A stretch of DNA of 23,170 nucleotides from Ectocarpus siliculosus (lineage: Eukaryota > Sar > Phaeophyceae > Ectocarpales > Ectocarpaceae): NCBI GenBank assembly GCA_000310025.1, contig FN648901.1:1-23170 (forward strand). The letters run 5' to 3'. The translations under genes were made by a program, and so were the position numbers. Below, one piece after another: positions 1,535 to 20,060 of this stretch; positions within the stretch are counted from its first letter, which is position 1; each line of letters opens with the position of its first letter. Below the pieces are notes generated by a model, which saw only the letters and a program-made list of their open reading frames with translations, ran no database searches and had not been told where the DNA came from.

Positions 1535-1768
1535 AAGAAGGTTTCGTGTAGTTTCGGTAGAACCATCCCTCCTATTCCTCCCTCACGCCTTGCTCTTGAT
1601 ATTCCTACCCGTTTGGTTAATGCCCGTACTCTCTGTTGCCACACTTTCCGTATTGGCTGCTGTTTCGGTTACTCCAACGACTTTATCCCGCTTTCTAGTC
1701 TATTGCAAGTAGGATGACTCGTGGCGTTTACAAGACAATCAGCCCCGCTGCCATCAATGTCCTCGAAG
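842..1768. other. No supported gene; probable 5' flank of the LINE and intron sequence
   Basis: This stretch has no exon I can support. It contains a run of about 14 G at 919-932 next to the LINE ORF, several short overlapping minus-strand frames without recognisable domains (possible LINE 5' region or ORF1 debris), and an AAC/CAA microsatellite. A pyrimidine-rich part before 1742 and an in-frame TGA at 1715-1717 fit an intron running into the first CFAP61 exon seen here. Confidence 0.4.
1494..1533 (+). repeat. (AAC)n / (CAA)n microsatellite
   Basis: About 12-13 uninterrupted CAA trinucleotides lie in non-coding sequence. On the minus strand they give a poly-Leu frame, which I treat as a repeat artefact. 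Confidence 0.95.
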
Positions 1769-1883
1769 GTTGGGATGGAGGACTTCACGGCCACCCGGCC
1801 CAGCGCCGTGATCGTGCTCGACCTGGAATCGGAGGCTGATGTGCTGGCAAGGGTTAGCGGCCGGAGAGTAGACATGGCCACAG
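1769..1883 (+). CDS. CFAP61: CFAP61 exon: start of adenylate-kinase-like LID
   Basis: The exon ends with PSAVIVLDLESEADVLARVS followed by GRRVDMATG, the classic beta-strand, helix and LID entry of adenylate kinases (R-x-x-G-R-R-x-D-x-x-T-G). The acceptor is ambiguous: AAG at 1766-1768 (used here, phase 0) or CAG at 1740-1742. An in-frame TGA at 1715 rules out any earlier start. The exon ends in phase 1 before a GC donor (ACAG then GCAAGG). Confidence 0.75.
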
Positions 1884-4800
1884 GCAAGGTTTAAAGTTTT
1901 TTTCAGCACTTTCCCGCCGCGTCTTGTTTCGTGTTTGCCATTCGTGTCGTCGTCGTAATCGTCATCGTCATCGTTGTTGGTGTTGGTTTTGGTGTTGGTC
2001 GTGGTGGTAGCGGTGGAGGTGCCGGCTTCGATTTCAAAATCACTCCGTCGTGGGCCGTTGTCATTGTTTGAAAGACGCGATTTCGGTAAGTCTGTGACAA
2101 CGCTCGCGACCACTTCATCCTTCGACACACCACGAGCTCAGGTCATTCTCCCCGGACGTGTTGGACCTTACTTCGTTTATCCGTAGTTGTGGACATGGCG
2201 GGGCAAGGCTGAGACAATGTTGACCGTCCGACGCTTCAAGGACCCCGCACGTGCTTCTTCACGTACACCTTGAAGCCAGGCATAGAAAGTTATCGCCCAC
2301 CCCCCCCTGGTGCTTTCAATCTCCATGGGAATATTGCGTACGCCATGGAGCGCTGAACGCATACACAGTTTTTGCCCTCGAAGACCCGACAAAAACGGTG
2401 CAATTCTCTAACTGTTCAGTCTTCCCAACACATCTCAGCTGCCCGGTTGCAGTCCTTGAGAAAGAAGGTATCGCACCGAAACTCAACTCCGGTCTCCCCT
2501 GTCCGAAAACCAGAACAAAACAGAACACAACTACATCAACAAGCAAGCGGACGATCCCCATGTTTATGAAAAGTAAAAGGGTAAACGTACCAGCAACAAC
2601 GACGACAATCACGGATGACCTAATGACATCATCGTCACACGGACATCATCATGCATCGACGGCAAACAACAACGATCTAACTCATCATCATCCTAATCAA
2701 CGACGGCAGGTGAGATCTACCACCAAGAGTTCCGGCCACCGCCGGCTGGGGACTCCGGCGACGAGGACGGTGGCGTAACCGTGGACGCCCTACCCGGCGA
2801 CGGAATCCCCGGGGCCGTCACCGCTAGGCTAGAGTCTTACCGGCGCAAGTGCGATGACGTCGTGAGATCATTCGCGTCGACTGAGGGAGGAGGAGGAGGA
2901 GGAGGTGCCGCCGGCGCGGATGGCGAACAGAAGCAGGGGCAGTACGGGGACGGAGGAGCGGGAGGGGGGGACGGAGTGTTTCAGTGGGATGCTGGAGGTA
3001 AGGCCTTTGCTGCGGCTGCGGAAACGAAGACGGGTGTACGTGCGCGCGTGTGTGTGTGTGTGGAGCCCTTCGTCGCTTAGACCACACCCTCGTGCCTCTA
3101 CAAGGCAGAAGACCCTGCGGAGAATGTCCCGGGTGTGGTAAGGTAGAAGGTTGTTTCGTGCGGCGTATCCAGCCAGAAAACGCTTGTGCGCGGCCTGCAT
3201 TGCATGAAATATGTTCGAAACTACCGCCACAATGACGGTTTGTACGGAGCGGCAAACACGTGCATCCTGCGGGAAAGATACCGACATCAAGGGAATGCGG
3301 AAGAGACAGCGCTCCTGCAATCCCTGCCACCCCTCCCTCCATCTTGAAATCTCAAAGGAACAGCTCTTTCGGTTTTGCACGCACATCCGCATCCCCGATC
3401 CCGGAGATCTACGGTGACCCATAATCTCCAGTCATTTCGAGGCCTGTTTACTAAATAATGTCGCTAAAACTAATCCAATCATTTTTCTTCTTCTCTCGAA
3501 ACCTCATCCGGCACTCTTGGGGTTGGTGCACGAACGATACACACCGTGTGGCAGGCGGCGGGGCGGGGGGCGAGGGCAACGGTGGAGGCAGCGGCCGGCG
3601 GGTGCCTCAAGAGGGCGTAATCCAGTTCATTCGGTCGCAGGAGGGCGGGGCGTTCGGGCGCGTTTCGGTCCTCGACGCCAACGAGGCCGTTGAAAGGCGA
3701 GTAAAGAAACGACGCGCGATATTCATGCGTATGGCAAGGAACAACCGCACGCGGTTGAGGACACGGGAGGTTCAAGCGCATAAACAACAGCGTTTTTTGT
3801 TTGGTTTCTCAGGAAGTTAAAGAAGCAGTACACTACTACCAGAGCGAACGGTTGAATTTTCGGGCGACGGCAAAAACCACCATCATTTGTGATGCATTTG
3901 CACAAACCAAGAGCACGCTCGCATGCCAAAAATCCTCCGGATGTTCACACACAAATGCTCAAACACATGAATTGCCGTTCTTGTGCAGCTGGCACGTATG
4001 TCTCCTTTCGTGTCATACTTGAGCTTTGTTTACGTCGCAGCGGGCACCAAAGTTTCTATCACATTGACCGCGAAGAACACTACAATAACATTTTTCCCTT
4101 TCTTTGCCTGGCCACCTGGCCACACACTTTGTGCGTGTACGACACAGTATCCTTGACCAAGCCGTGTCGGCCGTCGACGCCTGGGTGTCTGCCGACCACC
4201 TGGCGGTGCACGGGCGCGGCTCCAGCTCTGACGGCGGGTCCACTTCGTCCGCCGCCCTTGCTGCCCTGCCGCCTAACGCCTTCGCGGTGACCCTCTTCTG
4301 CCTCGAGTCCAGGCGAGTTACGCGGGCTGTTTCGTCCTGAGTTTCACGTGTCTTTGTCTGATTCTTCAGCGCTGCTTCGTGCGGCACTGTTCGTCGTAGG
4401 AATGTTACGACGAGCCGAAGCTTGGCGTTGGAAGAGAAACTTCGAACTGACGCTCTGCTCAACTCGGGTCTAGTACTTAGGCAAAGGTCTCGGTGGTGTG
4501 TTGGTGTTGTCATGACGCGACATTGTGCTTTTTATTGCTTGCCAAGTAGACCTGTGTGTTTCTTATCCTCCTTTTTATTCTTCAGAGAACCCTGTCGCAA
4601 TTCCCAATCCATAAATGCTCAGATTCCGCCTCGTCCCCGAGGAAGGAACGGTTTGCCATCGCGGACCCGGTCCTGTGAGAACAATGACCCGTCCTCTCGA
4701 GGACGCGTGGTCAATGGCCTACCCGCTAAGGCATGCAAAACACGACCACGCCCCCGCCCCCGCCCTTCGCCCCGAAGACCACTAGCATATATTCGAAAGT

Positions 4801-7800
4801 CAAACACAATGCCACAAGCTCGAAGCGCCCCCGACCATACTCCCACTCCCCGTCCCGAACACAAAATGTCGACGCTACGAGAACAGGCTCGAGTCTCGCG
4901 CGGCGGACTTCCTGCCACATGCTTTCCTGCTGTACCCTGACCGAGACTATTGCGTGCTCACGCTTCCATCGGTGGGCGCGGAGAGCGTACTGCTCCGGCA
5001 CTTCTCTCCCGTGCCGGCTAGGCCGGGTTCCGCGTTCAACCATGTCCTCTACGTGATGCACAGGTTGGTTTGGTTGGTTTGGGGTGTGTTCGGTTAAACG
5101 AGCATTGGAGCGGGAGGTAGACAAGGCACGTGCAGGTACAGTGGGGGTCCCTGTCTAGTGCCGTTTGAATAGTGCCAGTTCACGGTGTGGTGCCGGTGTC
5201 AGCCGGCAAAAACTGAATTTCCAAGCCATTGTCAGTACTTTGAATAGCGCCGGTCCGGTATTGTGCCGGTGGATTTTCTGGGCACATACCGGCACTAAAC
5301 AGGGAGCCCCACTGTACTCCTTTCTTGTGCGTGTAGGGTGATGATCGGAAGGAGCCGACACATGAAATTGCCATCTGGTAAATCATGTGGGGATTTTTAA
5401 CCATGTGGGGATTTTTGTTCTAGCAGTGTGGATCGGTGGAACGGTTTGCTGGCTGCTATGGGGTGGTATTTATACTTACATTCTCCCGGAGCCCATGCCT
5501 CATTCGTCCGGACTCATCCCTTCCCCGTCTTCTTTCGCTCCTGAGTATAACCCCGCTTCCCTCTCTCTCTCTTTCTCGACATTTCATGTCTCGGGATGCC
5601 GTAGAAAACGCCGCCCCCTTCGTTGAACGCCCCCACCAACTACTTTCGTCAACGGCCGTATCCCTACGAGGAGCAAGGGCGGTGCTCCTCCGCATTGAAC
5701 TAGATGATTGGTCGATGACAAAATGGCAAAGACAGCCAATAACACCAAGGACTCATGCCGATGCCTAACGCCCTGTACCAGAGATTCGCTGCCCGCCTAC
5801 AAATACCTGAGGGTTTCGAGATTCGTCGGAAGCAGTCACCGGGCGGGAGTGTCGCACCTCGTAGAATGCTGGGGCGGAGCCGACTTGGTCATGGCGGCGG
5901 TCAAAGACGCCGATCAGCACCAAAACCAGGCAAGAACGGGTTTCCGGGGTGTTCCCTGAAAACAATATGTGTGTCCCACTGCTATGATCAAAGTGGTCAC
6001 GACACGCCGTGTTTTTCTCGCCAAAAAAGATGGGGAGAGATGCAGCTGATGAACGGACTAAAAACCTCGCGGGAAGCAAGCCCAAAAAAGGACCACGAAA
6101 TGTTCTAAAACAAAGTCGCAGGCTAAATGATTGCGGGTGCATCGCAGCGGTGAAGGATGCCAACCGTTGCACAAAGGCCCTGCGTGATATACTGTAGTCT
6201 CACAGAGTCGTCTATTAAAACACGCATCATCTTTCTTTCAGGGCCTAACTTTGTGCCCCGGAACTTCCAGGGATGGACGGGGCTCCCGCCCGCTCCTTCG
6301 ACCGCCACGAATTGTCCCTCCTGAAACGAACGCACGCGCCTTGTCTGATTGCATGAAGCAATTTTTGCGAGGGCTCGACAAAATCCCGCCATAACCCAAC
6401 CCACACTTCCTCTCATCCCAATCATGAAACTGCTGGTCTTTTGTTCTTTTCCCAGCCGATTCCCCTACCCCCCCATCTCATCCTCCTCCGAATCCGCGCA
6501 TGCACGTCATCGCGCGAAAACATGCCTCCGCTTCAACGACAACACGGAATCTCAGGAACTGATGGACAACCCGCCCTCGGCGGCGTTCGTGGCCACCATG
6601 GGTCACCAGGTGGTCGGCGTGTTCGTCGCCAATCGGGAGGCGTGTGGGGGCGACGAGGTGTCTCGCCTCCGGTCTCTGTTCGAGCTGGAAGACTTCATCG
6701 CGTTCGATCGACACCGGCCCAGGAACCAGGCCGTCATGACGGCGCTGGCGCTGAACCCCATCTTTGCTGGGCACTGCCGCTTTGCCCTGAAAGAGGTGCG
6801 TGTGTGTGGGGGGGAGCCCCGTGTGTTTGTCAACGTTCATATCATAAGGGTTCATATTCCTGGTGTATACCCGTGCACCCGATACCGTGGACAGTTCGTT
6901 CCGCCTGCTCCAAACATGGTATCGGGTACCGGCTGCCGTGAAACGTTCGGGTACGAGTACGGGTACGAGTACGGGTACGAGTACGTGACCCTTTGGTGAG
7001 CTTGGCACAACTTCCACACCTGATGAACCCGACACTTTGGAATGTTCGGTGCAGCATCCTTACCATCCTCATATCTTATACGCTTCGGGAAAGTCCAGTA
7101 CGACTTCCCGTACCTTACCAAACGTGCCCGTACTACCGGCACATAAGGTCAGATTTGTGTGATGTTTCGAAATCCACAGTGACACACAATGAATTCACTC
7201 GCGTTTGATCATTTGGAAGAAATGGTAGCATTTCGAACATAAACCGATTGTTTGGGAGGAATGATGTTCGGAATCACATGGGTAAAGCTCAACATCAAAT
7301 TTTGAAGGATGTGGAACGATTGGTGTTCGCCTAGAAACCCCCTTAGCGGAATCAAGCACGAGAACGTTGTGTGTGTGCGAAATTCTCGATTTGCTACAAT
7401 GCAATCATCCTCAGCCGGACCAAAGCGAAAGAGGTACGAGCGGGACAGTATTCGACGAAGGCCTCCGAGTTCACGGATTCAGAGCATATGTCACGGATCA
7501 AAACCGAAACCCACTACTACTTCGGATCTTCTTACCGTGCCTTACTGCAGGGATACACCAGTGCCATTTCCCTACAGCACATGCTCCCATGTGGATTTCT
7601 TCTCTCCACTCCCATGTGGATTTCTTCCCTCCACTCCCAAGCGTGCGTGCTTGTGAGGGGGTGAACTTGTTGTTGCATTCGCTCGCGTAATGGGCGGTTG
7701 TGTTGGTAGATTTGTGTCCAATTTTATCGCTCGCAATTCGTTGGCATGAATATCGAATAACCGCTCAGACACACTCTGCTACCGCCTTGGTGATGCCTCC

Positions 7801-10800
7801 CCCCCCCCCTGGTCCCTTCCTGTACCCCCATTCGGCCCACAAGGTAATGCGCCTCTACGACAAGTCCGTGATCTACTGGTGCTCCACGCCCGGCTCCGAC
7901 CTCCCCAAATCCGTTCCCTGGCACATGATTCCCGTGAGGCCGCGCCACCAGATGCAGCCACGGCCTGGAGACGTCGCCCCCACCTACACGGCAGGCGGGG
8001 GGCGGAAGCGAATCGACCATGAGGTTTGCCGTTCTATTGATTTGTCACGAATATGGTGCATGGGGGAAGGGGGCGGGGGCGGTGCATTACTGCTATGTGT
8101 GGTACAGAAATGCTCTGCTAGACTTGCAACGCGTCGGATTCTACGTCTTGCTGCTGTTACAATCCGTAGCGCTCCTTCGAACTTAACGAAGTACCGTTCA
8201 TCCCTCGGCTTCCGTCCTCCCCTCCCCTCTCCTGCCCCAAATACCCAACGAAAAAACACCTTGGCCCGGGTACCTCGTAAACACCACGCCACAGCCGGCG
8301 GCGCTATACTTCCTGTCGCGGCGTTTCGTTACCGAGCCGAAGGTCACCGCCAACCGCCGCGTCGTCGTAGTCGGGGCCTCGACTACCGCCCTCGCCTGCC
8401 TCGAAGGCCTGGCGTTCACTCCCTATCTCAACATCACCAGCCTTACCCTTGTGTCCCCCGACGGAATACCCTCGGTCGCCACCGGAGCAGCCGATGAAGC
8501 CGCCAAGCCTATCGGAAGTGGTGGTTGTGGTGGTGGCGGCGGGGGGCAAGATTTTGGTGGCGATGGAGAGGGAGAGGGAGAGGCCGGAGAGTTGGCGGCG
8601 GCGGCGGCGACACTGTCCCCGGTCGACGAGGACGCGCCCGATGCCGACCGGATGGCTCGGATGGGCTTGGAGCGGCATGTTCGGGTCGTTAGGTGAGAGT
8701 GCATGGCACGTGCAGGTTACCACTGTATGGTTTCTGTTGCTCAGGTGCGTACTACGTGTTTACGTGCGTGCTCTCTTCTCCTGTGTGCAATATTGAGGCG
8801 AGCGGGGGACCGAAGTTGTGCTTGCTTTCCGCATGCGAAATAGTCTGTTTCCTACGGATCATTTGTGGAGATGACACATCAAGTCCGAGTACCACGTAGA
8901 TAGGGAAAGGGACGAGCCCGTGCTGGTTCAGGGCCAACGCCCGTAATCAATCTACGTAGTTTCAAGAATATTTAATACCGCCGTGGGCATAGTTTCGAGT
9001 GGTCTACTGTGAAAAAATGAAAAAAAACGTGAGAGGTTCCCTGATGTGCTATACAGTTTGGGTCTCTTATAGGGAAAAATCACGAGGGTTCACGCGGAAC
9101 CCGCTCACACGCCCAAACCAAACAAAGCCTCTCCGTCACCTCGCCCCAAACTCGCCCTTCTCGGCCGAACGAGCAAAACAACTGTACATACCCACCATTT
9201 CGGCACGTGGGCTCCCGTGCAGATCGCGCATGGTCCACCTGGACCGCGAGAACGGCGCCATCCTCCTCCCCGATGGGTCCGTGGTGCCCTACGACGTCCT
9301 CGTGCTGTGTACCGGCCTGCAGGTGTGTCTAGATTTTTGTGGGGGAGCGCCTAGCCGGTCGGACCCGACCTCTTAACGCGTCGGACCGTGCCGGATCAGG
9401 CCTCTTGGATAACCGGAGAGTTGTTTGTTGGCAGGGAGAGGGGGGGGGCGGCACAGATAAGGGGAAAGAGTTTCATCGCCGCCTGTTTTGTCTTCGTTGC
9501 TTGGCGGAACGGATTCCTTGCCAATACGATGCGACAACTCACACGGCAATTGTTTTCGGTCTCCTGACGTTGTATTTTCGGTTTCCGCGTTAAGCGAACC
9601 TCGGTATGAGTGTTGTTGACCACGACCGAGAATGCAACCTTGGCCTTCTACTTTACCTCACGCAGCCCTGACCAGACTTCTACCCCGACTGCCGACGCCG
9701 TCGTTGCCCCGCGATTCTCGCGGCACACAAAACGCACATGCATATTATTCTCACAACAACAACAACAACCCAAGGACGACACGTCGCGCCGCCTAGGGTT
9801 GTGGGCCCCCGGCCTAAACCCTTCCAGCCCGGGCGTCCCAGGCTTTATCTCCCTGGACTCCCCCTTTCTTCGGGTGGACGTCGAGAAAGCCGTCGCTAAA
9901 GCCCCGCCGGACGCCGGCGTGGTGGTGTACGCCGTCGCCCTCAAGGCCCTCTGCGCAGTGCGAGGGCTGATTGACATGGGCGTGGCGCCGGGGAGGATCT
10001 CGGTGGTACGGCCGTTGTCGGCTGGCTCGGCGGCAGCGGCGCCGAGGATGGCAGACGTGGCCGTTTCGGCGGTAGACGACGAGGAGAAAGCGGCGCCCCC
10101 CGGCAGTACAACAAGAGGGAAAGGTGTGAAGTCGTCGTCGTCAACGTGGTCGCTCGGAGACGAGGCGGTCGACACCGCAGCGGTCGCCGCGGCGGCCCGG
10201 GCCGGAATCAATGACGCCGGCGAGCGCCGACTTGAGGGGGTGCGGGTGGACTCCGAGGGAGGCGTGGCGGCCGCAGTGTTTGCGGGCAAGGGCGTCGACG
10301 GTCGAGGTGGGGGTGACGCAAGCGGGCGGAAGCAGCGCCGGTCGAAATCTCACGAAAAGGGTGAGAAAACCGGCGCTGCGAAGACGGCGGTGGTGGTGGC
10401 GGCGGCGGCGGCGGCGGCCGGGGAGGTGACGGACCGAAGGGGTGGCGGCGGCGGCGGCGGCGACAACCACTCCACGGGAGAGGAGCAAGAGGAGGGCGAA
10501 GAAGACGCCACGAGGAGCGACTTCCTTGCGTGCGGCCTGCTGCTGTGCGGGGACACGCCGAATGTCGACCCAGACGTGTTTAGGGCGGCCAACAACAGCG
10601 GCCTCGTATATGACGGGCGCCTTGTCGTCGACCCGACGTTCAGGACCTCCGACCCCGCGGTGCTGGCGGGAGGAACCCTGACAAAGTTCTCGAGAGTGCA
10701 CGGCTCGGGCGCGCCCCGGCACGAAAAGTTCAACGCGAGCGAGGTGAGTCGAACTCGGCCCGCTTTTACTACGTTGTGTGGTACCGTGTTTTGTCATCGA

Positions 10801-13418
10801 AGGCCATCGGGCATCCTAGTTACGTAATTAGTCTGGGACCTGTGACGCCATGCAGTTTCATTTTTCTGCGATCCTTTCTACATTCTGCCCGACGTATACG
10901 ACACAGGTGACACTATCTTGTTTGAGAGCATGGTCAACGCGCTGTCGTTGAGGTTCGTGACTACAAACAGAACCACACCGGACGTCTGCCCCCCTCCCAC
11001 CACTCGTATCACAGCCACCCTAGGTTTCTAATACGTCTTTTTCGCTCCACTAACCTAGCCACCGATACCGTAACCAATCGGCGCACTTCTCAGAGTTATG
11101 TTGTGGTTGTATTGTCCGGACCTTTTTCGACCAGGTTGGCACCCATCTCGCCTCGTGCGTGCGTCAGCAAATCGACCCCCTCTCGCTCGCACAAAGCACA
11201 TGCGCCGACGACCCCGACGCCATCGTCGACGGTTGCGGCTCCGAGCGCTACACTGATGGCGGCGGCGGCGGCGGTTCACGCCAAGGAACGGCGTACTCCG
11301 GAGCCTCTCCTTTTGGCGCCCGAAGCAGCCCCGTTACCGCCCTAGCCCCAGCGCCTCGACTCCCGATCTTCGAGAAACCTCGGTGCGTGAGCGGAAAGCT
11401 CCCGGGCGGGCTGTGGTACGTTCGCGCGACGCTGCCGCCAGCGGATGAGTCGTCCAAGCGTCGAGGCGAAGGCACGGGCGGTGGTGGAGGCGACGTTGGC
11501 AGCGACGCGGAAGGCGGTGGGGAGAGCGATGATGACGGCCGCGGCGGAGAAGAAAAGCGCAGCAGTGCCTCTGGGGGGGGCGATGAGGTCAAGTCTTTCA
11601 CTACGGGAGCGATCGTGGTCGGCGGTGGCGGTGGGGAGGACGACGACGACGGCGGTGCTGCCTCTGACGAGGGAGGAGGGGTCACGGGCCAGTACTGTTT
11701 GGTGCGGGTCGACTCGCTAGATCGGGTGTGCGACGTCATCTACTGCGGCCGGGAACCCGTGGAAGCGAAGAACCTCAGCAAGGTCGTAGGGGTGCAGCTG
11801 GGCTACCTCCAGGCGAGTGGGAGGGGGCAAACGCGATGGTCGCAAGTTGCAGCAGTTGACGGAATCCGGCTTGTACGGGACACTACCTTTGTGCGGTGAT
11901 GCCCACCGAAATGCGACTGACGATACCTCGGCTATAACCGTCACCAACCAAGTAGTGCCACTCTGGCCCGTCCGCTGCCTGGTCGTTGGCCCTCACCAAA
12001 CCCCTCTCTCGCCCTCCCCATTTTCGCACAAACTGCACAAACACCAGGGCCTAGAAGCGGCGTTCGAGCGTGGAGGGATTTCGAGCTGGATCGATTTCTT
12101 CCGGCAGGGCGCGTTGACACCTCTGTACCACGACCGTTTCCCCATGCTCTCCGAGGATCTGAGGGAGGCGTTTTCTGACGGGGACGAGGCGGCGGCGAAC
12201 CTGCTGTCCGCCTTGAACAAGGTAGGGGAAATGGGAGGGGCCGGTCCTGTGCCCTTCAGGTCATAAATTGCGCGCGTCGCGCAAGTTGTCGCGCACGGGG
12301 CGACATCCGGGTAGAGGTTAGAGTTCGGCGAATGCGAGGAACGACATGTCATATGCCCCAAGCAAATTGCTGCTGCACAACTACTTGCAGAGTCGCTAGC
12401 CGACCCATGAATATGAGGTCACTTATTCCATCGTCGAGTTCAGGCGGCTTATGGAGTGAAATTCGTCTGGAGGCCGTGCGTAGGTGAGACTCGACTTGGA
12501 TTTCGGTCACAAACACAACAGAAAGTTACTGGAATCTCTTCTCGTTGTCGACCCCAAACATCATGACGCCCTTGTTTTCAAAGCTCGTTACTTGAGCTAG
12601 AACGCGTTTAATGTAGGTTTTGCTCGGCTCTGGTTAAAGGTGAGGCAGGCTCTTGTACATTCTAGAAACTCAGTCATAACGCACCCGCCGATCAACCGAA
12701 CCTCGGGAGAGCAGGGTTGGTGACGGGGGACGTTTTTTTTAATGCTTTTATGTCCGTGGTTGGCGACGAATGTATTCAGCGGCCCGCCCATACGCCTAAA
12801 ATCGAACAAGAAGCTTGCCACTTACCAGCCCGCCCCCCTGCTTGACAAACCACGACTCATTATGTTCGATTCCTTGCAAAATACTTGTGTGACAACGTCA
12901 GAGCATCATCCCAATCTCCAGCGAAAACCTACTCCAAGATGGAAAACACCTGAAAAACGTGATGGTTCGTGGCGACCGTCTGATTTTTCCCTTGCCTAGC
13001 GAGAACAGGCACGCTCAATCCTACATCTGTGATCCTTTCGATCAACTCACACCCCCCTCTGTGTCTCCTGCCCGAACACATGCATGCGTGATCAAGCACA
13101 AGCCAAGAGGAAGACTGACCCGTATCACGGTAACACATGCCCTTTCTTTAATAACACGCAAAACAACAGGGGATCGACGACGGTATGAACGACGACTGGC
13201 TGTCTCTATCGATCCGCAAGGCCGTTGGGCCCGGCGCTTGCGAGCTGCCTCCCTCCACGCGGAAAACGGCAGAGGCTCGTGCTCTGGAGTGGGTGAGGCG
13301 GAACCGTGGACTGCTACCGCATTTGGCTTTGCCTGTGCCTCAACAACCTGCCTCTTCCGCTGCCGACGGGGTTGTTGGTCGTAGTGGCCCGGCCGTTGTG
13401 AAGGCCCGGGCGAGATAG
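1769..13418 (+). CDS. CFAP61: CFAP61 (cilia- and flagella-associated protein 61), 5'-incomplete, 14 exons
   Basis: CFAP61/FAP61 is a subunit of the calmodulin- and spoke-associated complex that anchors radial spokes (notably RS3) to ciliary doublet microtubules and takes part in dynein control. Exons: 1769-1883, 2710-2997, 3555-3696, 4148-4312, 4887-5063, 5782-5929, 6556-6795, 7844-8023, 8295-8692, 9223-9322, 9775-10743, 11135-11812, 12048-12221, 13170-13418. The sum is 4,023 nt, or 1,341 codons with the stop, and every junction keeps phase. Family landmarks in order: DFLPHAFLLYPDRDYCVLTL; a GNAT-like block with FVATMGHQVVGVFV and ALNPIF; VPVRPRHQ; a Rossmann-like VVVVGAST; VPYDVLVLCTG; GGTLTKFSRVHGSG; LYHDRF; and a C-terminal WVRRNRGLLPHLALP. 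Exons 1-3 add an adenylate-kinase-like LID segment. The normal amino-terminal third is absent, so the true start lies upstream or the copy is truncated. Introns 1, 3, 4, 6 and 12 use GC donors. Identification rests on remembered family similarity; exon 1's start is the least certain boundary. Confidence 0.9.
1884..2709 (+). other. GC-AG intron 1
   Basis: The donor is GCAAGG after ACAG and the acceptor is CGGCAG. Joining 1883 to 2710 makes Gly (G + GT) and restores the kinase motif DMATGEIYHQEF. The nearby GT at 1889 would join in the wrong phase. Confidence 0.85.
2710..2997 (+). CDS. CFAP61: CFAP61 exon: adenylate-kinase-like LID and C-terminal helix
   Basis: The exon begins GEIYHQEFRPPP, the LID strand of adenylate kinases, and continues to VTARLESYRRKCDDVVRSF, which matches the R-L-x-x-Y helix after the LID. 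The second LID arginine (R-x-D-D in canonical enzymes) is replaced by a PGDG stretch. A Gly/Ala-rich acidic linker follows. The donor GGAG then GTAAGG is strong, phase 1. Confidence 0.8.
3555..3696 (+). CDS. CFAP61: CFAP61 exon: end of adenylate-kinase-like domain
   Basis: The acceptor GTGTGGCAG completes a Gly codon in phase. After a Gly-rich linker comes FGRVSVLDANEAVE, resembling the last strand and helix of adenylate kinases (VDG or DA, then V-x-x-V). It ends in phase 2 at AAAG before GCGAGT. Confidence 0.65.
3697..4147 (+). other. GC-AG intron 3
   Basis: The donor is GCGAGT (AAAG before it) and the acceptor is CGACACAG. The junction AG + T gives Ser and a continuous helix, ANEAVE-S-ILDQAVSAV. 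A GT donor four bases on (GTAAAG, phase 0) would not match the phase of the next exon. Confidence 0.65.
4148..4312 (+). CDS. CFAP61: CFAP61 exon: linker into CFAP61 core
   Basis: It encodes ILDQAVSAVDAWVSADH, a Ser/Gly linker, then LPPNAFAVTLFCLES, which matches the conserved A-F-x-x-x-L-F-C block of CFAP61 proteins. It ends in phase 2 before a GC donor. Confidence 0.8.
4313..4886 (+). other. GC-AG intron 4
   Basis: The donor is CCAG then GCGAGT; the acceptor is CGAGAACAG. The join AG + G (Arg) gives FCLESRLESRAADFL. From FC to DF this has the same number of residues I recall for the human protein; the alternative GT donor at 4317 would add three. Confidence 0.8.
4887..5063 (+). CDS. CFAP61: CFAP61 exon: core block LYPDRDYCVLTLPS
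   Basis: It encodes RAADFLPHAFLLYPDRDYC, VLTLPSVGAESVLLRHFSPV and NHVLYVMHR, among the most conserved CFAP61 stretches (F-x-D-x-x-Y/F-C-x-x-x-L-P, then the LYV-x-HR end). The donor is CACAG then GTTGGT, phase 2. Confidence 0.9.
5139..5314. mobile_element. MITE with 25-bp TIRs and TA target site (Tc1/mariner-pogo-like)
   Basis: The left end CAGTGGGGGTCCCTGT (from 5139) is mirrored at 5290-5314. The two 25-bp arms, extending to TAGTGCCG, differ at only two positions when reverse-complemented. TA lies directly outside both ends (5137-5138, 5315-5316), as expected for a TA target duplication. The body is 176 bp, non-coding, and carries an internal direct repeat around TTTGAATAGYGCC. It lies wholly within CFAP61 intron 5. 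The superfamily is inferred from CAGT ends plus TA. Confidence 0.85.
5782..5929 (+). CDS. CFAP61: CFAP61 exon: pre-GNAT segment
   Basis: The acceptor CCCTGTACCAG lies just after a CTAAC branch-site-like motif. The exon completes Arg and reads DSLPAYKYLRVSRFVGSSHR then GVSHLVECW and VMAAVKDADQHQNQ. This matches the CFAP61 stretch after the LYV-x-HR motif. It ends in phase 0 before GCAAGA. Confidence 0.8.
5930..6555 (+). other. GC-AG intron 6
   Basis: The donor is CCAG then GCAAGA and the acceptor is GAATCTCAG; both sides are phase 0. A GT ten bases further on would be phase 1 and does not fit. A pyrimidine tract spans about 6440-6490. Confidence 0.8.
6556..6795 (+). CDS. CFAP61: CFAP61 exon: GNAT-like block
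   Basis: It encodes SAAFVATMGHQVVGVFVANR (an acetyltransferase-like beta hairpin), then FELEDFIAFDRHRPRNQAVM and ALNPIFAGHCRFALKE. The order FVA..VVGV, ..EDFI.F, ..ALNPIF, ..LKE is diagnostic of CFAP61. Eighty codons, phase 0 at both ends; donor GAG then GTGCGT. Confidence 0.95.
6949..6984 (+). repeat. 12-bp minisatellite, three perfect copies
   Basis: GGGTACGAGTAC is repeated three times head to tail inside CFAP61 intron 7. It gives a Gly-Tyr-Glu-Tyr frame that I regard as spurious. Confidence 0.95.
7584..7636 (+). repeat. 25-bp tandem repeat, two copies
   Basis: CTCCCATGTGGATTTCTTC plus CTCCA occurs twice in tandem with one or two differences, within intron 7 and upstream of the pyrimidine-rich acceptor. 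Confidence 0.85.
7844..8023 (+). CDS. CFAP61: CFAP61 exon: VPVRPRHQ block
   Basis: It starts in phase 0 after CCCACAAG, giving ALKE-VMRLYDKSVIYW, and contains the diagnostic HMIPVRPRHQMQPRP. A homopyrimidine tract sits 5' of the acceptor. Sixty codons, phase 0, donor GAG then GTTTGC. Confidence 0.93.
8295..8692 (+). CDS. CFAP61: CFAP61 exon: Rossmann-like nucleotide-binding block
   Basis: It encodes LSRRFVTEPKVTANRR, then VVVVGASTTALACLEGL, a degenerate dinucleotide-binding turn (GAST in place of GxGxxG), and LNITSLTLVSPDGIPS. A Gly/Glu-rich insert follows before the conserved LERHVRVV. The fold resembles pyridine-nucleotide oxidoreductases; redox activity is not established for this family. 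Phase 2 end, donor AG then GTGAGA. Confidence 0.93.
9223..9322 (+). CDS. CFAP61: CFAP61 exon: VPYDVLVLCTG block
   Basis: The acceptor CCCGTGCAG completes Arg (AG + A). The exon encodes SRMVHLDRENGAILLPDG then VVPYDVLVLCTGLQ, the oxidoreductase-like Y-D-x-L-x-x-C-T-G signature of CFAP61. Phase 0 end, donor CAG then GTGTGT. Confidence 0.93.
9775..10743 (+). CDS. CFAP61: CFAP61 exon: large exon with Ala/Gly-rich insert
   Basis: The start after CAACCCAAG (phase 0) is preferred because it joins CTGLQ to DDTSRRLGLW; an alternative phase-0 acceptor sits at 9675. Conserved blocks are VVVYAVALKALCAVRGLIDM, ISVVRP, DFLACGLLLCG, SGLVYDGRLVVDPTFRTSDP and LAGGTLTKFSRVHGSG. Between ISVVRP and DFLACG is an insert of about 170 residues rich in Ala, Gly, Ser and Lys, longer than the roughly 65 residues I recall for the human protein. 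Phase 0 end, donor GTGAGT. Confidence 0.9.
11135..11812 (+). CDS. CFAP61: CFAP61 exon: post-oxidoreductase region, acidic insert
   Basis: The acceptor TTCGACCAG opens in phase 0 with VGTHLASCVRQQIDPLS. Conserved parts are LPIFEKPRCVSGKLPGGLWY and GQYCLVRVDSLDRVCDVIYC. An Asp/Gly/Glu-rich insert of about 90 residues separates them. It ends VGVQLGYLQ in phase 0 before the GC donor GCGAGT. Confidence 0.9.
11813..12047 (+). other. GC-AG intron 12
   Basis: The donor is CCAG then GCGAGT and the acceptor is AACACCAG, phase 0/0, giving LGYLQ-GLEAAFERGG. At 235 bp it is the shortest intron of the gene. A pyrimidine tract spans 12001-12025. Moving to the GT four bases on breaks the frame. Confidence 0.85.
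12048..12221 (+). CDS. CFAP61: CFAP61 exon: LYHDRF block
   Basis: It encodes SWIDFFRQGALTPLYHDRF followed by LSEDLREAF, matching the conserved F-x-x-x-x-x-x-x-L-x-H-D-R-F element of the C-terminal CFAP61 region. Fifty-eight codons, phase 0, donor AAG then GTAGGG. Confidence 0.92.
13170..13418 (+). CDS. CFAP61: CFAP61 terminal exon
   Basis: The acceptor is AAACAACAG. The exon encodes TAEARALEWVRRNRGLLPHL, comparable to the C-terminal Y-N-R-Y-H-L-P stretch of the human protein, then a Ser/Ala/Val tail. The stop TAG is 13416-13418. Confidence 0.88.
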   Translation, partial: GIDDGMNDDWLSLSIRKAVGPGACELPPSTRKTAEARALEWVRRNRGLLPHLALPVPQQPASSAADGVVGRSGPAVVKARAR

Positions 13419-14011
13419 TACCCGCTAACCAGCAAGGCCTTCAGGGATGGCGACGTTCTGCGCTGGCTGCTTTCCGTATTGCGTGCGCGCTTATGTTTAT
13501 TTACCGCAGCAGCAGGTCGCTCCTGCTGTCGATGGAAGGGGAGCGGTGGCGTTTATTGAGGATTGTCGTAACAATTCGCGCGACACGAAAAACGGGGTTG
13601 CGTTTGCTCGACCACATTCGAGAAGTGAGCGCAAAGGGCTATGTGAGTGGCCATGCACACGTAGCCACTTTGCTCCGCCTTTTGCGTACCCTGCGGGACC
13701 AACACCCTGTACACACCCTGTCCAGACCCTGTCGAGACCCTGCCGGGGACTGTTGTTCTACAAGGTCGCCGTACCGGAGACCTTGTGGAGAGACCACCCT
13801 GGTCAGGGGTGCATTGCCTATACCCTGTGCTACCTGGCATGTATTTAGAGTGCCAAAAGAGGCACCACCATTGAAGAGTCCTCACCCGACGATATGTGTT
13901 CGTATTATACTAAATATGGTATCAGAATATGCATACTCCGGAGTACGATGTGTTTTGATTTCCAGAGGCAGTCTACGAGTACGGAAAAAAAAGAAAAAGA
14001 TCCGCAGCACG
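13419..14011. other. 3' flank of CFAP61, no supported gene
   Basis: I see no coding sequence here. An imperfect tandem repeat of about 11 bp with core ACCCTGT lies at 13701-13744. A canonical AATAAA signal is not evident. Confidence 0.5.
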
Positions 14012-16208: not shown

Positions 16209-16793
16209 CAGGAACGAGGATAGTTCGATAGAATAAATCTCTTGGAAGGAAGATCAAGTTGCAGGCTGTGAGGAAAGAGGACAGATGATGATGATGGAGC
16301 CATGGAGCCCTCTCTCAAGCCCTCTCTCAAGCCCTACGCCCATGGAAGCGGCTAAACTATTGACAGACGCGTCCCGATAAGAACCAGTATCAAAAGGGCA
16401 GCCAGCGAAGCAAACACGCACACGGATAAAGTATTATTATAGTCTCCCTCCCGACTACTGCTGTAGACCGCAGGTACACATACCGGTTGATTCGTTACTG
16501 CCCCTACAACAGCAGTTCTTCACTGACTGTCGTTTTCCCCTCATCCGTACTCAAACTCTTCCTCGTCTTGCGAGAAAATGGGCACAGGAAAGGAATCAAA
16601 TTCCGACTAACACACTGAAGTGCAAGAAAGGTAACTGCCGACTGCCTTGCCCATGAATCGCTCAGTCGCGCCGTGTTTCTCAGTCGCGCGCTGGGGATGT
16701 CTGTCGCTCGCACGGTCCGATGCGGTCCGACATGACACGTCTCATCAAGTCTCTGTGGCGTATATTATCAAACGCAAACATGCCGCAGATATC
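16209..16793. other. No supported gene
   Basis: The sequence carries a GAT trinucleotide run near 16286-16298 and a 12-bp tandem repeat (AGCCCTCTCTCA) at about 16309-16337. No coding evidence. Confidence 0.45.
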
Positions 16794-16885
16794 CACGAGT
16801 TTCCGTAAGAAGAGATCCATCATGTTGCCCTTGCTTTCGATCACCCCACCCGTTCCGTATTGTGCGCCGCCCTTGTCTCTGTCTT

Positions 16886-16887
<2 letters not shown>

Positions 16888-16940
<53 letters not shown>
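16888..16940 (+). repeat. (CT)n microsatellite, copy 1
   Basis: An uninterrupted CT run of about 25 units lies inside the first duplicated unit. It creates Ser/Leu and Arg/Glu repeat frames that are not genes. Confidence 0.95.
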
Positions 16941-16946
<6 letters not shown>

Positions 16947-17185
16947 CTTTTCCGCGGCTGTCGTCAACCATTGTCTTTCGGTTTGAGTTCAACCAGTTCT
17001 ACGCTTCCTCTCTCTTTGTGTTTTCCGAACCTTAGTCCACGCATTGGAAATGAAATACCGAGACCATGCTTGCGAGAGCTTGAGGGGGTGTGCCACGCGT
17101 TTCCGTAGGAGGAGATCCATCATGTTGCCCTTGCTTTCGATCACCCCACCCGTTCCGTATTGTGCGCCGCCCTTGTCTCTGTCTT

Positions 17186-17187
<2 letters not shown>

Positions 17188-17255
<68 letters not shown>

Positions 17256-17256
17256 A
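17188..17256 (+). repeat. (CT)n microsatellite, copy 2
   Basis: A longer CT run with a single TT interruption lies in the second duplicated unit. Confidence 0.95.
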
Positions 17257-17412
17257 TTTCTCTAATTTTCTTTTCCGCGGCTGTCGTCAACCATTGTCTT
17301 TCGGTTTGAGTTCAACCAGTTCTACGCTTCCTCTCTCTTTGTGTTTTCCGAACCTTAGTCCACGCATTGGAAATAAAATACCGAGACCATGCTTGCGAGA
17401 GCTTGAGGGTCG

Positions 17413-19009: not shown

Positions 19010-19210
19010 ATGTCCTCCGCCCGCTGCGTCCAAGGTCGTTCTGCGGCGAGGGGTGTCCATTCCGAGGTCAACGCGAATGAAGCCCATCATCACCAAACCC
19101 GTGGGCGCACGGTCGCCAAGGCCACCAAATCCCCGTCCAAGTCCTACACGACTCCGAAGGAGAAGGGTCGCAAGACCATCGTCCGGAAGAAGAGGCGAGC
19201 GCCATCCTTG
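19010..19210 (+). CDS. First exon of a hypothetical basic protein
   Basis: ATG 19010 lies in CACGATGTCC after a pyrimidine-rich leader. The 67 codons use mostly G/C third positions and encode a basic, disordered segment (KATKSPSKSYTTPKEKGRKT, then VRKKRRAPSL), suggesting a nuclear or nucleic-acid-binding protein. The exon ends in phase 0 at a strong GTGAGT donor (19211). A frame starting upstream at 18875 includes the leader, but the downstream ATG fits codon bias better. The next exon is probably near 21879-21924. Confidence 0.5.
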
Positions 19211-20060
19211 GTGAGTCTCACGTGTTGTCCCCGAATATATCCTGCATCGTTTGGAATGTATGGGCGCATGGGCGCATGCGCATACATGCACCCGTTTTGC
19301 CTTTTTTTTCGCGGTGTTTTTTTTTCTAGGTCCGCCCTGTCGTTCGTTGTTCTCCCTTCTCACTTAAGTACAATCGACCGCTGTGGCCGTTGTCGCTGTT
19401 TTGGCCCCTCTGCACCCACCCAGTGCATCCGGGCTCTGCACCCCGTCAGCGTTGCATTCATTCATTGCTCTCGCCCGCACCTCGCACGCTGTTCAATTGT
19501 TTTCAAGCATTGATCAGTAGCCACATCCCCGTGCCCCCAAGGCAGCTGCTCGCATCCATGCTCTCCGCAATCTACCATCGACCGTGCTGCAGTCATCCAG
19601 TGTACGCACACACAGAATTCGATTATTGCATCACGGGTATAAATCATCAGTGTATAGACTTGAAGAGACTCGAAACAAGTCCAGTACCCAGCCGGTTTTC
19701 CTCCACTCACTGAAAAGACTCCACCACATCCCGTTCGACTGCTGTGGGTATATCTCGAATGGGTAGTCTTTCTGTGTGTATTTTTATTATTCCTTAATTG
19801 TCTGCATATACCCGGTCTTTCTCTCTCCTCTCTCTCTCCTCTCTCCTCTCTCTCTCCCTCTCTCTACAACTTACTATACGTAGAAGCGGGTTTTTGTGTT
19901 TCGATCTTGAGTCGTCAGGTCGTCGCCCGTCTGTGCAATCGCAAGATATGACAACCATGGGTTACGCTTTTTCTCGACACCCGCACTCGTTCGGTCGCGC
20001 ATGTTCCTCACTCCTCAACGTTCTCCCACATCCCAACTTACTCAGCCTTCGTTACCAGCG

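Follow-up and report, generated by a model that had tools for sequence, protein, structure and literature searches.

The stretch of DNA analyzed here, referred to below as the window, spans positions 1–23170 of one contig (C336) of the Ectocarpus siliculosus genome (189.5 Mb in 492 contigs), with its first base at the start of the contig. Its plus strand carries the readable part of a gene that we assign to CFAP61 (1754–13421, stop codon included; the start at 1754 is not fixed), modeled as 14 exons separated by 13 introns. The first seven exons lie at 1754–1883, 2710–2997, 3555–3696, 4148–4312, 4887–5063, 5782–5929, and 6556–6795, and the remaining seven at 7844–8023, 8295–8692, 9223–9322, 9775–10743, 11135–11812, 12048–12221, and 13170–13421, where the frame reaches its stop. 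Joined through five GC and eight GT donors, they yield a 1345-aa frame free of internal stops, in which the Pfam CFAP61_dimer domain scores 51.9 bits and which retrieves human CFAP61 (8j07_d0, E = 2.3e-65) and its Chlamydomonas counterpart (8glv_LZ, E = 2.7e-46) in a PDB search; on this homology, which extends over both the FAD/NAD-like and the dimerization regions, the predicted protein is CFAP61. A protein search of the genome returned no second copy with GT at the sites in question, all 18 of its 18 matches falling in this same contig.

Upstream of the CFAP61 part, at 1754–4312, the frame continues through a region similar to adenylate kinases in their lid and C-terminal portion (PDB matches at E = 0.0002–0.0007), where the Pfam ADK_lid model scores 14.9 bits against a cut-off of 26.6. 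Its position in frame ahead of CFAP61 points to a fusion of adenylate kinase with CFAP61, or to an insertion; no P-loop motif was found in the first 2 kb of the window. The left end of the contig may lie within the gene, the 5′ part of the latter falling outside the window, and PF16092 (CFAP61_N) has zero matches in the genome, in a search that yielded none in any control either. Elsewhere in the window, a 295-aa open frame on the minus strand (2–886) runs off the contig start and looks, by eye, like a retrotransposon endonuclease; two ~300-base stretches at 16790–17410, likewise noticed by eye, are near-identical and both contain a long CT repeat; and a short basic, Lys/Arg-rich frame without a Pfam match lies on the plus strand at 19012–19212, ending at a GTGAGT donor.

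Predicted GC Donors in the CFAP61 Gene

The original prediction held that five of the 13 introns of this gene begin with GC, and the letters at 1884, 3697, 4313, 5930, and 11813 agree. Intron 1 (1884–2709, phase 1) is bounded by CAG/GCAAGG and GGCAG/GT, intron 3 (3697–4147, phase 2) by AAG/GCGAGT and CACAG/TA, intron 4 (4313–4886, phase 2) by CAG/GCGAGT and AACAG/GC, intron 6 (5930–6555, phase 0) by CAG/GCAAGA and CTCAG/GA, and intron 12 (11813–12047, phase 0) by CAG/GCGAGT and ACCAG/GG. All five thus combine a GC donor with an AG acceptor in frame, and all five donors take the form AG/GCRAG; an AG precedes the cut at all 13 donors of the gene. A U12-type identity was considered and rejected: donors of the minor class have the form RTATCC(T/C)T, which appears in none of the five. 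Ochrophyta are, moreover, placed among the groups without minor introns in the relevant part of a published survey (PMC10639083).

To judge the donors, we kept the anchors flanking each of the 13 introns fixed, listed all GT-AG and GC-AG pairs that preserve the frame, and scored their donors and acceptors with matrices derived from introns that had aligned well in other genes of the genome (152 GT introns, with 14 GC introns added in one of the scorings). The top-scoring donor is GC in exactly introns 1, 3, 4, 6, and 12, and it is the modeled GT in the other eight, that is in intron 2 (2998–3554) and in the introns starting at 5064, 6796, 8024, 8693, 9323, 10744, and 12222; for introns 9 and 10 the top-scoring acceptor lies upstream of the modeled one, with the donor unchanged. 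With a prior of 1%, and with the GT matrix applied to the eight remaining positions of each GC site, the posterior for GC is 0.994 for intron 1, 0.973 for intron 3, 0.997 for intron 4, 0.932 for intron 6, and 0.706 for intron 12. In the same order, these values rise to 0.999, 0.996, 0.9995, 0.989, and 0.938 at a prior of 6%, and fall to 0.969, 0.878, 0.983, 0.733, and 0.322 at a prior of 0.2%.

Homology bears on these junctions unevenly. At introns 4 and 12 the GC junctions give gapless matches to both human and Chlamydomonas CFAP61, and forbidding them lowers the score against the corresponding segments by 10 (human) and 6 (Chlamydomonas) units at intron 4 and by 8 and 4 units at intron 12, respectively. 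At intron 6 both references picked another, GT donor, in a stretch that is badly aligned, so that the site rests on phase and site strength. Introns 1 and 3 lie upstream of the part aligned to CFAP61 in the PDB search. For intron 1, an alternative with GT at 1889 and an acceptor ending at 2714 keeps the phase, exchanges E for K in the adenylate-kinase lid, and leaves the ADK_lid score at 14.9 bits for both versions; it loses on site strength, its acceptor having G at −3, a base seen at that position in 0 of 166 well-aligned acceptors.

CFAP61 homology therefore lends modest support to GC at introns 4 and 12 only. The earlier claim of homology support at introns 1, 4, 6, and 12 accordingly survives for the fourth and the twelfth and is not borne out for the other two, and the claim that GC is needed to keep phase fails at intron 1, where the GT-AG pair does as well, while GC does remain the top-scoring in-frame donor at all five. 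Intron 3, described earlier as resting mainly on phase, is supported by phase and site strength, the junction being outside the CFAP61 homology of the PDB search. In sum, reading frame and site scores make it most likely that five of the 13 introns begin with GC, and at least three of the five GC donors can be taken as firm predictions.

GC-AG Introns Elsewhere in the Genome

A share of ~1% or less is usually reported for GC-AG introns, as far as the cited parts of two surveys extend (PMC2490688, PMC7072748). Our literature search, which covered few subscription papers or supplements, found no published rate for brown algae, and one may exist in print. Using a purpose-built spliced protein-to-DNA aligner that penalizes GC, GA, and GG donors equally relative to GT, we sampled 232 introns from 21 other genes encoding chaperonins, dyneins, and CDC48/proteasome ATPases. 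The loci used correspond to 8 of ~10 chaperonin places, 9 of ~17 dynein loci, and nine AAA places; among the nine AAA loci fetched, three (L027, L029, and L030) had no reference above 250 bits and stayed unaligned, and two with 9 introns each (L026 and L033) were left out, their best references being 36% and 38% identical. In these two the non-GT calls were four GC (score drops of 6, 2, 1, and 9), one GA, and three GG.

Across the sample, 205 donors were called as GT and 27 as non-GT (19 GC, 5 GA, and 3 GG). The eight chaperonin genes contribute 80 introns with seven GC, two GA, and no GG calls, and all seven GC calls were kept on the basis of GT-only reruns made by gene rather than by intron, with score drops of 91, 13, 22, 25, 6, and 50 in six genes. 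Nine dynein heavy-chain loci contribute 114 introns with nine GC, three GA, and one GG calls; GC calls were retained here at a score drop of at least 7, which leaves seven credible ones and discards two with drops of 2 and 0. Some references, namely three for chaperonins and those for dyneins, are locally distant, and the assignment of two dyneins (L017 and L021) comes from alignment rather than from a PDB search of their own. The third set (VCP, RPT3, and two VCP-like genes) comprises 38 introns with two GG calls and three GC calls, none of the latter credible (drops of 2, 4, and 0). Another dynein heavy-chain locus feature is a 1366-aa uninterrupted frame in L024 (C24:453500–459500), the other sampled dyneins having an intron every few hundred bases.

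Credible GC-AG introns thus number 14 of 232, or 6.0% (95% CI 3.3–9.9) of the introns of the 21 sampled genes as called by alignment, and the chance of at least that many is 1.3e-7 at a true rate of 1% and 0.0003 at 2%. The count includes one call (L006, 2091) whose replacement by GT costs 6 score units and without which it becomes 13 of 232. As an internal control, an AG precedes the cut in none of the eight GA and GG calls and none of the five weak GC calls, whereas it does so in 13 of the 14 GC donors counted as credible; the GA, GG, and weak GC calls fall mostly in badly aligned stretches, and those of GA and GG look like alignment noise. GC introns are of ordinary length, with a median of 420 compared with 414.5 otherwise.

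GC donors occur in housekeeping and flagellar genes alike, and differences among single genes stay within chance. Cytoplasmic dynein 1 (L018) has one GC intron and the remaining eight dynein loci, treated as axonemal-type, have 6 credible ones in 102, versus 7 in 80 for the chaperonins (Fisher p = 0.57), and we rejected flagellar genes as a GC-enriched class on this comparison. Over-dispersion of GC among the 21 genes is likewise absent (P = 0.84); there is hence no sign of GC clustering by gene, with the proviso that a rare clustered class could escape a sample of 21. The suggestion that donor use is relaxed across the lineage is thus supported by a small but controlled sample, with GC donors in the chaperonins and in the dynein heavy chains (7 of 114) alike. 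In a separate search of the same genome, the EsV-1-7 domain gave at least 150 matches (150 scored of 880 first-look candidates); a large family of this domain is presumably a brown-algal feature, and the matches point to a brown alga.

U1 snRNA and Donor Context

All six U1 genes found begin with ATACTTACCTG, in a search that scored 41 of 2618 first-look candidates and that divergent copies may escape. The six (L009–L014) are nearly identical to one another and are distributed over three contigs (C479, C47, and C3), with four on a single contig.

The strong U1-matching context that had been noted for the five donors holds genome-wide, 13 of the 14 GC donors elsewhere being GCRAG. The corresponding GTRAG occurs in 48 of the 152 GT donors that aligned well (p = 9e-6), and at the other eight positions the mean number of U1 matches is 6.15 for GC donors (n = 13) versus 5.10 for GT donors (n = 152; p = 1.5e-4). 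We also considered, and rejected, the idea that a perfect GT donor is avoided and GC put in its place: counts of the full 9-letter sites fit a second-order background model derived from 186 kb of the genome, CAGGTAAGT occurring 578 times (606 expected, 814 for the reversed control) and CAGGCAAGT 1447 times (1446 expected, 1022 for the reversed control), in a model that over-predicts CAGGRAAGT (2737 expected, 1923 seen). Since the site counts equal the background, they support neither a GT-to-GC swap nor the GC rate itself.

On these data we propose that the donor C at +2 would take the place of T in introns that are otherwise of the U2 type, and that a normal U1 snRNA would pair across the resulting mismatch, with the AG before the cut and the RAG at +3 to +5 offsetting its cost. 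Compensation by the rest of the donor site is described for GC-AG introns in the part of the literature drawn on here (PMC2490688). As for the origin of the high GC rate, one guess is that it might have arisen through T-to-C drift at strong donors, the genome having a G+C content of ~55% (0.546 in the window itself).

CFAP61 against Its Own Genome

Five GC donors among 13 introns had been described as far above expectation. Relative to a rate of 1% that description stands (P = 1.2e-7 for at least five of 13); relative to the genome’s own rate of 6.0% it holds weakly (P = 0.0007), the gene having been picked by a scan, and among 5000 genes of 13 introns one would expect ~3.4 with at least five (0.2–31 over the confidence range). 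With a genomic GC rate of ~6%, there is no need to read CFAP61 as a special gene, and we put a probability of roughly 80% on its five GC donors being a draw from the tail of a genome-wide GC habit, made up of ordinary U2-type GC-AG introns and a normal U1. Two findings pull the other way: CFAP61 alone exceeds the other 21 genes (5 of 13 vs. 14 of 232, Fisher p = 0.0014), which counts against chance and makes a local cause conceivable, and the 38 introns of the third control set hold no credible GC donor. In the favored reading, we infer splicing as modeled, compensation through U1, and a chance excess in CFAP61.

One competing explanation shifts the ends of some of these introns, notably intron 1 (1889–2714) or intron 12 (11817 to 12053 or 12054), and makes them GT-AG. 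Both alternatives keep the phase, a GT-only alignment does arrive at 11817, and the lid domain scores intron 1 equally either way; yet the GC posteriors at the 1% prior speak against a shift, clearly so for intron 1 and less so for intron 12, where the GT version additionally breaks the gapless match to the two CFAP61 references, and we consider such shifts unlikely. Sequencing or assembly errors, or a decayed gene copy, as the source of the C would fit the position of the gene, on a short contig that begins where the window does, and the failure of an uncontrolled search to find the 5′ part of CFAP61. Five errors would, however, each need to strike +2 of a strong donor, the 1345-aa frame is open and its sites intact, the same pattern recurs in 14 introns on other contigs, and the protein search of the genome turned up no second copy, all of which leave this explanation very improbable.

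The remaining alternatives accept the GC donors and differ over their cause. The original prediction raised regulated splicing; spelled out here, CFAP61 would be specifically enriched in GC donors whose weakness regulates its splicing, for instance by stage (flagellated spores and gametes vs. thallus). The excess over the rest of the sample favors such a role, as does the link between GC donors and regulated splicing elsewhere, exemplified by let-2 of C. elegans in the cited part of the literature (PMC2490688), but the axonemal-type dyneins would be expected to share the regulation and are no richer in GC than the chaperonins, the gene was selected by a scan of windows, and the five sites sit in strong contexts rather than weak ones; we therefore regard it as improbable. 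A broader version, in which the lineage has moved to GC donors at a sizeable minority of introns (at least ~6%) with its U1 unchanged, while genes like CFAP61 have accumulated them well in excess of that rate as a co-regulated set of slower introns that tune flagellar expression, is speculative and strikes us as distinctly improbable. Finally, a variant U1 snRNA with a G that pairs with C at +2 could read the GC donors, in line with their raised rate in the genome and with the suggestion of a U1 variant for the GA donors of Eurytemora and Oikopleura in the part of the survey consulted (PMC7072748). Six of six U1 copies found nevertheless have the normal 5′ end, and RAG at +3 to +5 remains a requirement of the GC donors although a matching U1 should make it dispensable, so that we give this possibility hardly any credence.

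Discussion

Reading the five donors as a tail draw from a genome-wide habit has mainly corrective value: the odd GC count of one gene would mostly be explained by the genome in which it resides. A GC-AG rate several-fold above the usual one, in combination with a normal U1, would make this genome well suited to asking what degree of mismatch U1 can accept and how donors pass between GT and GC. It would also have practical consequences for annotation, as gene predictors that admit GT only, or that weight GC at 1% or less, would disrupt or displace roughly one in 16 introns across the genome, and a gene with 13 introns would be mis-modeled by them more often than not.

The introns described here resemble the GC-AG introns of the major class (U2-type) known from animals, plants, and fungi in the GC donor, the AG acceptor, a near-consensus remainder of the site, and the normal 5′ end of the U1 copies found, as characterized in the cited part of the literature (PMC2490688). 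What sets them apart is their rate, ~6% of the 232 sampled introns versus less than 1% in the model organisms covered by the cited sections of two surveys (PMC2490688, PMC7072748). An annotation precedent for a figure of this size is Meyerozyma guilliermondii, listed with ~6.67% major non-canonical sites in the relevant section of one of them (PMC7072748). As in Eurytemora affinis and Oikopleura dioica, with their GA-AG introns, and in some fungi (same source and section; PMC7072748), the departure from GT is genome-wide; unlike in the two animals, the alternative donor here is GC and is paired with a canonical U1, and the GA and GG calls resemble noise. Dinoflagellate introns, which can end in G(C/A)-AG according to the portion of the work cited (PMC5029490), offer another algal lineage in which GC donors are frequent. 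There, however, introns typically lack GU-AG ends, as that portion describes (PMC5029490), whereas here GT remains the rule, at 205 of the 232 donors sampled.
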